Below are positions 13,701 through 17,778 of a stretch of 56,934 nt of DNA, piece after piece. Under the pieces are notes generated by a model that ran no database searches, was not told where the DNA came from, and saw only the letters and a list, made by a program, of their open reading frames with translations. This DNA comes from Streptomyces sp. NRRL F-5630 (GTDB lineage: Bacteria; Actinomycetota; Actinomycetes; Streptomycetales; Streptomycetaceae), in the NCBI RefSeq assembly GCF_000719475.1, contig NZ_JOGO01000037.1:1-56934 (forward strand). The letters are read 5' to 3'. Each line of letters starts with the position of its first letter. Position 1 is the stretch's first letter. The translations under genes were made by a program, and so were the position numbers.

Positions 13701-16700
13701 TCGCGAGCAACGCCTCCGCCTCGATCGGGTCACCGAGCCTGGTCCCCGTCCCGTGCGCCTCCACCACGTCCACATCGGAGGCCCCGAGCCCCGCATCCGC
13801 CAACGCCGCCCGGATCACCCGCTGCTGCGCGGGCCCGCTGGGCGCGGACAGGCCGTTCGACGCACCGTCCTGGTTGATCGCGCTGCCCCGCACGACCGCG
13901 AGCACACGGTGCCCGTTGCGCCGGGCGTCCGACAGCCGCTCCAGGACCAGGACGCCCACGCCCTCGGACCACGCCGTACCGTCGGCATCGGCCGAGAAGG
14001 GCTTGCACCGGCCGTCGGCCGCCAGGCCCCCCTGCCGGCCGAACTCGCGGAACATTCCGGTCGTCGCCATGACGGCCACGCCACCGGCCAGGGCCAGATC
14101 GCACTCGCCCGACCGCAGGGCCCTCCCCGCCAGGTGCGTGGCGACCAGCGACGACGAGCACGCCGTGTCCACCGTCACCGCCGGGCCCTCGAAGCCGAAC
14201 GTGTAGGACACCCGGCCGGAGATGACGCTGGGGGTGCTGCCGGTGAGGATCTGGCCCGCGAGGTGGTCCGGCGCCTGGTCGGCGCGGGGGCCGTAGTCGT
14301 GCGGCGTCGCGCCCACGTAGACGCCCGTGGCCGAGCCGCGCAGACCATCCGGGTTTAGTCCGGCCTGTTCGAGGGCTTCCCAGGAGGTCTCCAGGAGCAG
14401 TCGCTGCTGCGGGTCCATCGTCAGCGCCTCGCGGGGCGAGATCCCGAAGAAGTCGGCGTCGAAGTCCGCGGCCCCATTGAGGAAACCGCCGCTGGGCGCG
14501 GCCTGGCCGTCATCCGTCACGGGTGGCGTCCAGCCGCGGTCCGTGGGCCAGGCCGAGGGGGGTGCCGCGCCGTCGGCGACCAGGCGCCAGAGGTCGTCCG
14601 GCGAGGCGACGCCGCCGGGGTAGCGGCAGGCCATGCCGACCACGGCCACGGCATCGTCGTCGGGGTGCCGGGGGCGGGTCTCCTGGGCGGGTGCGGGGCC
14701 GGTCGTGCCGTCGTCCGGGAGAGCGGTGTGCGCGGTGCGGCCGGGGTGGCCCGCGCGCGCGTCCGGGCCCGTGACACCTGGCGCCGCGGAGCGTGCGGCC
14801 AGTCCGGTGGCCGGCTTCCGGGAGGGGTCGGTGGCCCCGGGGACGGTGGTGAGCGAGGCGTCGAGGTGTGCCGCCAGTGCTTGGGGCGTGGGGTGGTCGA
14901 ACACCGTGCTGCCCCTCACGGGCAGCCCCGTGCACGCCGCGAGAATCCTGCCGAGCTCCTCGATCATGACGGAGTCGAAACCGAGGTCCTTGAAGCTGCG
15001 CGCCGGGTCGACCGGGGCCGAGTCCCGCATGACGACGGCCGCCTGCTCGCACACGAACGTGCGCAGGGCCGCCGTCCGCTTCGCTCCGGTGAGCCCGCCC
15101 AGCGCGGCGATTGCCTCTCGTCCGGGATGCGCGGGGTCCACGGCGGGGGCGGTGGCCGTGCCGGTCGCCACGGGTGTCTGCGCGGCGGCCGGTGCCTCAG
15201 CGGCGACCGGTGCCTCCGTGGCGGCCGGTGACGGCGTCGTGGTCACGACCTGCGGGGTGGACTGTTCCGGTCCCGTGTCGAGCCAGTAGCGACGGCGTTG
15301 GAAGGGGTAGGTCGGCAGGTCCACGCTCCGGACGCCGCCCAGCACGGGCGCCCAGTCGACATCGGCGCCCGCGACCCACAGCGTCGCCAGCGACCTGACC
15401 GATACGCGGCCCTCCGCGATCAGCGGGACGAAGGCGGGAGGGACGTCGTCGTCGTTCGAGGCGGCCGAGGAGGTGAGAGCCGCGTCCCGTCCCGCTTCCA
15501 CGACGAGCGACAGATCGCCGTCCCGCAGCAGCGCCGCGCCGTCGGTGAACGGGGCCGTCTCCCGCGCCTGCCGCAGCCAGTGCTCAGGGCCCTGGAGGAG
15601 CCCGGGCTCCGCTGTCCCGCCCAGCATCGTCGACACCACGGTCAGCCGGGAGACGCCGGGCTCGGCCGTGGACAGCACCCTGCGACAGGCGTCCGCCCCG
15701 TCGGCCGGTGAGGTCTCCCCGAGCCAGCCGCGCGCCAGCGCCAGGCGAGCGGCGTCCCGCAGCGACCACACACCCGCCGCGTGGGCGGCCGTCACCTCGC
15801 CCACCCCGTGTCCCGCGACCGTCGTCGGGCGAAGCCCCCACGACGTCAGCAACCGCCACGAGGCCACGCCGAACGCGAAGGCGCCCGCTTGGTCCCGGCC
15901 GCCCTCCCCCGGGCCCGGCCCCGCCTCGTCGGCTGCCGACGTCATGGCCTGACGCAGTGCCGCACCGAACCTCCCCTCCGCCGGTCCCCGTGCCACTCGC
16001 GCCCGCTCCGGCAGGCCCAGGGTGTCGGCGACCTCGGCGGCCACCTCGTCGAAGACCTCGCACACCTCTGCCAGCGCCTCGGCGAAGACCGGGAAGACGG
16101 ACAGGGCCATGGCCGCGCCCGCGCTCTCCGGGGCCGCGCCCGAGAAGACCACCCCCACCTCGCCCCGGGTCGTCGGGCCGGACAGCACCACGCCGGACAT
16201 GGGGTCACCGTCGGCGAGGCCGCGTACTCCGCTCAGCAACTCCTCGTGCGTGGCCGCCACGACGGCCGCGCGCCGCTCGAAGCCCTTGCGCGTCGAGGCC
16301 AGGGACCACGCGACCTCCGCAGCCGACACCTTCGTGCCGTCGGCCGCGCCGCCGCCCGCCAGCCGGGAGGCGGCGTCGCGCAGAGCGGCGTCGGTGCGGC
16401 CGGACAGCAGCCACGGCACGTCGGTCAGTGCCCTGGCCGGTGCGGCGGATGCCGTCGGTGCGGCGGACGCGGCCGGCGGGGCCCAGTCGGACAGCACCAC
16501 GTGGCAGTTGGTGCCGCCCATACCGACAGAGCTGACACCGGCGACGAGTTCACTGCCCTCGCCTTCCGGCTCCGCGGGGCCGTCGGGCCACAGACCCGGG
16601 TCCCGCTGCACACGGAGGTTGAGTTCGTCGAGCGGAATGCGCGGGTTGGGGTTGTCGAAGTTGAGGCTGGCGGGCAGCCATCGGTGCTTGAGGGAGAGAA

Positions 16701-17778: not shown

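Follow-up and report, generated by a model that had tools for sequence, protein, structure and literature searches.

A variant KSQ loading module with an eroded acyltransferase in Streptomyces sp. NRRL F-5630

A modular polyketide synthase (PKS) of Streptomyces sp. NRRL F-5630 starts with what appears to be a variant of the KSQ loading module, in which the residues for KSQ chemistry are kept and the loading acyltransferase (AT) is lost. Judged from its sequence, this is a non-standard KSQ module, as its own active AT is missing, although its function is most likely the usual one, served by an AT from elsewhere. We lean towards a working module in which malonyl, supplied by FabD or by the AT of a PKS module, would be decarboxylated to acetyl.

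The loading module and its gene cluster

The window, the whole stretch of 56,934 nucleotides that was analyzed, is a complete contig (NZ_JOGO01000037.1 of assembly GCF_000719475.1; here contig C37 of genome G000). The PKS frame runs on the minus strand from 17778 to base 1, where the contig end truncates it. The features considered are the following:

1..17778, minus strand: modular PKS gene with the loading module, modules 1 and 2, and module 3 broken in the ER; open frame of 5926 aa
14860..17778, minus strand: loading module of KSQ, AT remnant and ACP (aa 1-973); Pfam ketoacyl-synt, Acyl_transf_1 (partial) and PP-binding
16480..17757, minus strand: KSQ domain (aa 8-433), from Pfam ketoacyl-synt and residue alignment
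17266-17268, 16861-16863 and 16741-16743, minus strand: KSQ residues Q171, H306 and H346, respectively; Q171 replaces the KS Cys
15334..16158, minus strand: AT remnant (aa 541-815), without nucleophile, GQGSQ and small subdomain
15805..15807, minus strand: codon of Gly658, which replaces the catalytic Ser; GHSxG reads GHGVG
15679..15690, minus strand: junction at aa 697-700, where the ferredoxin-like subdomain lacks about 75 residues, from alignment
15274..15333, minus strand: post-AT linker bearing LPTYPFQRRRYW, retained even in the AT-less protein P0160
14860..15066, minus strand: loading ACP with S936 (14971-14973); PP-binding, 35.2 bits
12097..14655, minus strand: KS and AT of module 1; AT motifs GHSQGE and YASH, methylmalonyl type
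18030..19181, minus strand: amidinotransferase A (P0003); same gene cluster, judged to lie outside the loading step

The typical features of a KSQ loading module are present in the KS and the ACP: Gln occupies the Cys position in the first domain of the protein, both decarboxylation histidines (H306 and H346) are there, and the ACP carries its phosphopantetheine Ser (S936). An own active malonyl or methylmalonyl AT, also a standard feature of such modules, is absent, with Gly658 at the nucleophile position, no catalytic His and the small subdomain missing. Pfam Acyl_transf_1 covers only profile positions 3-133 of 319 (38.9 and 36.2 bits), and the opening FPGQGSQ is replaced by FSGAAPESA. In an alignment to the GfsA KSQ-AncAT chimera 9iyw, the match breaks off at query 697/chain 693 and resumes at query 700/chain 771; the approximately 75 missing residues correspond to the stretch that holds HAFH or YASH and the catalytic His in complete ATs. 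A sequence-only reading had described Q171 in the loading KS, the lost nucleophile (GHGVG, codon 15807-15805), the lost FPGQGSQ opening and the absence of a selectivity motif, and on all of these it was accurate, the last being seen in the alignment to 9iyw. The AlphaFold2 model of the loading module is fairly confident (mean pLDDT 84.6, 40 sequences), and among PDB structures it fits best to 7vee, the KSQ-AT didomain of GfsA, with a target TM-score of 0.76.

A sequence error at 15805-15807 was rejected as unlikely: the same Gly is found in P0007, whose module is 99% identical, and Ala in P0008 and L043. A Ser elsewhere serving as the AT nucleophile was likewise rejected: no Ser stands at the aligned position, and the subdomain that would bear the His is missing anyway.

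The end of C37 at which the PKS gene is truncated shares an exact overlap of 99 bases with an end of C137, as do ends of C137 and C109 with each other, a pattern as of assembly breaks at repeats. We infer the contig order C37-C137-C109-C26, in which the C109-C26 link is made because two NRPS pieces fit and because of synteny with Saccharopolyspora endophytica (G062). In G062, a single contig carries a homolog of amidinotransferase A, then homologs of the C-PCP, lyase and PALP/ATP-grasp genes of C26 and, further onward, homologs of the window P450 and PKS and finally one of the type III PKS of C26. Cluster genes that we take to be DpgA, DpgB, DpgC and HpgT are labelled so by sequence likeness, and Pfam gives fold classes only. 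The ATs of extension modules 1-4 are of the methylmalonyl type and that of module 5 is of the malonyl type, after which NRPS modules follow; the meaning of the AT motifs (GHSQGE/YASH for the methylmalonyl type) is taken from the available text of PMC10888640.

Two P450 genes are present, at 19448-20653 and 35358-36587. The first probably belongs to the cluster, because its 71% homolog adjoins the PKS in S. endophytica; its orientation is opposite in the window. The window also holds a short gene whose product has AadA_C and NTP_transf_2 domains (22031-22882, aminoglycoside adenylyltransferase-like) and, right of the cluster, an IS4/5-type transposase (40562-41410; DUF4096, DDE_Tnp_1). Diperamycin was considered as the product and rejected: an amidinotransferase and a KSQ module are present there, but all of its ATs have GHSxGE in the portion of its description that was available. 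No fitting product name was found among the literature matches listed.

Erosion of the acyltransferase among related modules

A search for relatives found at least 594 stretches, 564 of them encoding relatives, and the best 80 by score against the query were kept. After exclusion of L077 (Cys in the KS, fragment) and L101 (cut off), 78 loading modules could be scored. Ser and His are both kept in 65 of these 78 and not in the other 13, a fraction that is biased because the modules are the 80 loci scoring best against the window query among at least 564 relatives. Within the same best 80, Gln171, His306 and His346 of the KSQ are kept in 78/78 modules, including all 13 with an eroded AT. The pattern across these 13 suggests that AT loss is more than chance.

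In a KSQ tree of 83 rows, six of the 13 (L043-L048) group with the window, P0008 and P0068 in a single clade of nine modules, with a support of 100/100 from a bootstrap that had not settled; their hosts are Streptomyces and Saccharopolyspora. A second clade of eroded ATs consists of L051, L053, L060 and L095 (100/100), L114 is isolated in the tree, and L072 and L074 share a three-member group with the intact L087. The four modules of the second clade come from other actinomycete families with other gene surroundings, and no amidinotransferase match was seen in their fetched flanks. A second set of 231 proteins was obtained by merging two match lists of 120 rows and removing overlaps. Among these listed matches, 68 of 231 have the KSQ motif within the first 700 aa, and seven of the 68 are eroded (P0007, P0008, P0068, P0150, P0151, P0156 and P0160). 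The motif filter had flagged 20 of the 68, and 13 of these have a full-length AT, judged by the His in seven and by an AT length of 325-326 aa in the other six. AT loss in KSQ loading modules recurs outside the nine-module clade. In the open-access literature, we noticed no earlier description of KSQ loading modules whose AT is eroded or absent.

Across the nine-module clade the AT core measures 184-372 aa and the routes of decay differ, with the KSQ catalytic residues and the ACP retained. L045 keeps the Ser and a full-length core of 372 aa, but its GQGS has become GHGP and it has no His motif; in P0068, GQGS and the Ser are present and the small subdomain is missing; in L047, only the Ser is left. 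The Ser position is occupied by Gly in the window and by Ala in P0008 and L043, and the Ser is still present in the eroded ATs of L045, L047, P0068, L051 and L060. In three Saccharopolyspora modules the AT cores are reduced to 234, 206 and 184 aa, and in P0160 (Saccharothrix xinjiangensis) the KSQ, the KS-AT linker, the post-AT linker LPTYAFQRRRHW and the ACP are found with the AT entirely absent. The small subdomain was probably lost at least two times within the clade, because the sister of the group of the window, L043 and P0008 (99/91) is L045, which retains it, and because the deletion junctions differ (ETSPADG/A vs LMEPM/LE). Alternatively, L045 may have regained its subdomain by recombination. 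We propose that what is left of the AT is retained as a spacer of dwindling size that separates the KS-AT linker from the post-AT linker.

The dN/dS values, calculated by the Nei-Gojobori method for these GC-rich genes, are 0.41-0.85 for the AT core vs 0.15-0.31 for the KSQ in 21 pairs of the nine-module clade, with 8-188 indel columns in the AT core. In 41 control pairs of intact modules, which unlike the clade pairs were restricted to a KSQ dN of 0.02-0.16 and a dS <0.8, the medians are 0.30 for the AT, 0.20 for the KSQ and five indels; L069 was omitted from these controls despite having Ser and His, and values are listed for 40 of the 41 pairs. The AT/KSQ ratios of dN/dS span 1.46-5.08 in the clade (median 2.32) and 0.72-3.38 in the controls (median 1.71), so that the two ranges overlap, and an AT dN/dS of 0.51-0.66 is reached in five control pairs that involve L109 (YASH-type AT vs HAFH). 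The loading ACP has values of 0.23-0.53 (nine pairs) and the AT of module 1 of 0.17-0.29 (five pairs). This pattern indicates that the AT is decaying and that the KSQ and ACP are decaying much less or not at all.

Charging of the loading carrier protein

The sequence-only reading had also proposed that a different AT charges the loading ACP, or that a different group is placed on it, and an AT without nucleophile and catalytic His supports this. The kept Gln and two His, together with the low dN/dS of the KSQ, point to a decarboxylatable malonyl-type group and not to a guanidinoacyl group. In BLAST searches, the AT remnant scores 91.3 bits with HAFH-type loading ATs, 81.6 with the AT of module 5 and at most 42.0 with methylmalonyl-type ATs, so that it appears to be of malonyl-type ancestry. 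This ancestry is not distinctive, because YASH is rare in intact loading ATs (3 of 65, among the best 80 of at least 564 relatives).

In the mechanism we lean towards, malonyl would be placed on S936 of the loading ACP by an AT located elsewhere, most likely FabD, the housekeeping malonyl-CoA:ACP transacylase, or else a module AT of the same PKS, among which the malonyl-type AT of module 5 is one candidate. The KSQ would then decarboxylate malonyl to acetyl-ACP, which would prime module 1. That malonyl loading lies within the ability of FabD would explain both the repeated AT loss and the intact methylmalonyl-type ATs of modules 1-4; as a counterpoint, the malonyl-type AT of module 5 is intact though FabD could in principle replace it. 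Further points against this mechanism are the overlapping AT/KSQ ratios, the Ser kept in several eroded ATs and two AT-bearing frames on C1 of G000 that could act as donors. In PMC6164871, as far as its text was available, an AT-null DEBS module was rescued by the malonyl-CoA:ACP transacylase of S. coelicolor. G062 has eight PF00698 matches, namely five module ATs, the remnant (below the cut-off), a 1470-aa frame and a 374-aa stand-alone AT that is read as FabD. In G000, a 378-aa frame on C9 has neighbors that we take to be FabF, ACP and FabH. The possible donors common to G000 and G062 would be FabD and the PKS's own module ATs. No discrete PF00698 match to a dedicated AT was found on the G062 cluster contig, and the features of a trans-AT PKS are absent, with five extension-module ATs on C37, C137 and C109. 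In G064, a 298-aa stand-alone AT lies on the contig of the module, about 50 kb off, and adjoins another PKS.

Other donors were weighed. The AT of module 1 is the nearest possible in-cis donor and might charge the loading ACP besides its own with methylmalonyl, from which the KSQ would yield propionyl; it is on the same polypeptide, intact and constrained, and in the available part of PMC11672594 AT11 of the irumamycin PKS is suggested to serve module 12 with its inactive AT12. This donor would, however, switch the starter unit, the lost AT being malonyl-type, and in-cis loading also has to face P0160, which has lost the whole AT; we regard it as unlikely. Even less credit is given to a discrete AT outside the cluster, since in G062, with the same kind of module, PF00698 matches just one stand-alone protein, the putative FabD, and no discrete AT occurs among the open reading frames scanned around the cluster, which cover part of it. 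Two AT-bearing frames on C1 of G000 (about 825 aa) speak for such an AT, and still we hold it to be very improbable. These frames, G000:C1:95249-96073 and 106640-107449 (L009 and L008), have an N-terminal AT and a distinct second half, which is presumably PfaD-like; they are perhaps a separate trans-AT type system.

The loading module might also be bypassed, with an acyl-CoA or acyl-ACP priming the KS of module 1 directly and the KSQ and ACP also on their way out. The AT is dead, PKS modules have reportedly been primed without their loading module in work on DEBS, and the ACP dN/dS of up to 0.53 in one pair leaves some room. A bypass would be expected to let the entire module decay, though, and the KSQ residues are kept in 78/78 modules (among the best 80 of at least 564 relatives), the KSQ dN/dS is 0.15-0.31 and the ACP Ser is kept across the clade, so that a bypass is considered quite improbable, if somewhat less so than a discrete AT.

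Amidinotransferase A, for which no Pfam or NCBIfam match was found, matches SxtG, the inosamine-phosphate amidinotransferase StrB1 and GATM (seven PDB sequences, E 1.2e-48 to 1.5e-36), a kinship expected of an Arg:amine amidinotransferase. A second copy, amidinotransferase B, is located on C26 and is 61% identical to A. Both occur in 7/7 genomes with this loading module, on a single contig in G062, G064 and G066, and are therefore regarded as members of the gene cluster. The distance from A to the PKS is about 8.4 kb in S. endophytica, where A adjoins the C-PCP, lyase and PALP/ATP-grasp genes, and about 12.6 kb in S. cacaoi. With six candidates scored per genome, at least 16 of 295 genus genomes have a match to A at E 1e-130 or better. 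Eight Streptomyces genomes besides the window's own carry homologs of A at 69-79%; four of them have loading-module-like matches at E 1e-120 or better, none near the A homolog. In the search of these eight genomes, with 106 of 117-188 candidates scored in four and with G147 and G256 in 800 and 320 contigs, respectively, no loading module was found near A, the closest match being generic, 40 kb off and at 46% identity.

In G034 (C37:90600-102247; L033, L034), a 77% homolog of A occurs with homologs of the type III PKS (72%) and an ECH protein (56%), and methyltransferase (68%) and P450 (46%) homologs are nearby, all within 12 kb. The contig carrying this A homolog and the Dpg-type genes has no PF00698 match, and the set is perhaps a small pathway to an amidinated dihydroxyphenylglycine-like compound. 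Since homologs of A occur with no such module found near, and in view of the G034 context, A is more likely to serve the peptide part or a pathway for amino acids than to take part in priming. At L038:4350-6647 on C26, with homologs in L044 and L048, a cysteine-synthase-like PALP part is fused to an ATP-grasp/L-amino-acid-ligase part; this fusion and the adjoining Lyase_1 gene may provide a diamino acid as a substrate for the amidinotransferases.

The idea that priming is coupled to the neighboring amidinotransferase, put forward from the sequence alone, is not supported, given the KSQ conservation, the synteny and the A homologs with no such module found nearby. A loading ACP that receives an unusual guanidino-type acyl made with A is indeed in keeping with the presence of A in 7/7 genomes with this module, and 4-guanidinobutyryl starters have been proposed for other polyketides in the available passages of PMC4572681 and PMC5704753. 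Such a starter has no carboxyl for the KSQ to remove, yet the KSQ is conserved; A homologs occur in eight genomes with no such module found near; and A adjoins amino-acid-type genes in S. endophytica. In addition, no acyl-CoA ligase or amine oxidase was found among the open reading frames scanned, which cover part of the cluster, nor was a transacylase, the third of the azalomycin/lydicamycin-type priming genes. A guanidino starter is thus the least credible of the alternatives and is considered very improbable.

Comparison with known systems and implications

The KSQ modules of GfsA and PikAI (7vee, 8in9, 9iyw, 7uwr), whose structures are among the best sequence and fold matches to the window loading module, are alike in the Gln and two His and in the order of KS, linker, AT and linker. 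They have a full AT, whereas the window AT is without nucleophile, GQGSQ and small subdomain. The AT-null DEBS module 6 likewise has no working AT and is charged with malonyl in trans, according to the available part of PMC6164871, but is an engineered extension module, while the window module is a natural loading module for which trans charging is proposed. During trans-AT PKS initiation, as treated in the accessible text of PMC8302727, a separate AT also charges the ACP and decarboxylation takes place on the ACP, by a GNAT-like domain in trans-AT lines and by KSQ in cis-AT lines; the window differs in that its KSQ module is without AT while the extension modules read retain theirs. The irumamycin PKS is likewise a cis-AT line with one inactive AT and a neighbor proposed to serve, although AT12 belongs to an extension module and not to a KSQ loading module (PMC11672594, in part). 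For the alpiniamide PKS (PMC6113372, as far as available), decarboxylative loading in a hybrid PKS/NRPS line is also proposed, but only its loading module has its own AT, with Ser in the KS, the reverse of the window.

It is tentatively suggested that cis-AT KSQ modules repeatedly lose their AT in nature and that FabD then charges malonyl, and under the FabD reading, which for this step we hold with some reserve, primary metabolism would directly fire the assembly line. The modules may be arranged, again tentatively, as a graded series from L045 over P0068, L047 and the window to the Saccharopolyspora cores of 234-184 aa and the AT-less P0160, and this series could document how initiation changed from cis to trans in nature, an idea that we advance with equal caution. 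For structure prediction, caution is needed, as the starter unit of the window module is not readable from its loading AT. The question of whether the FabD of fatty acid synthesis starts polyketide lines in the cell has become testable. If the proposal is true, the loading AT of a KSQ module would be dispensable in nature, with the KSQ, both linkers and the ACP having to stay, and natural AT-less starter modules would be available for engineering.
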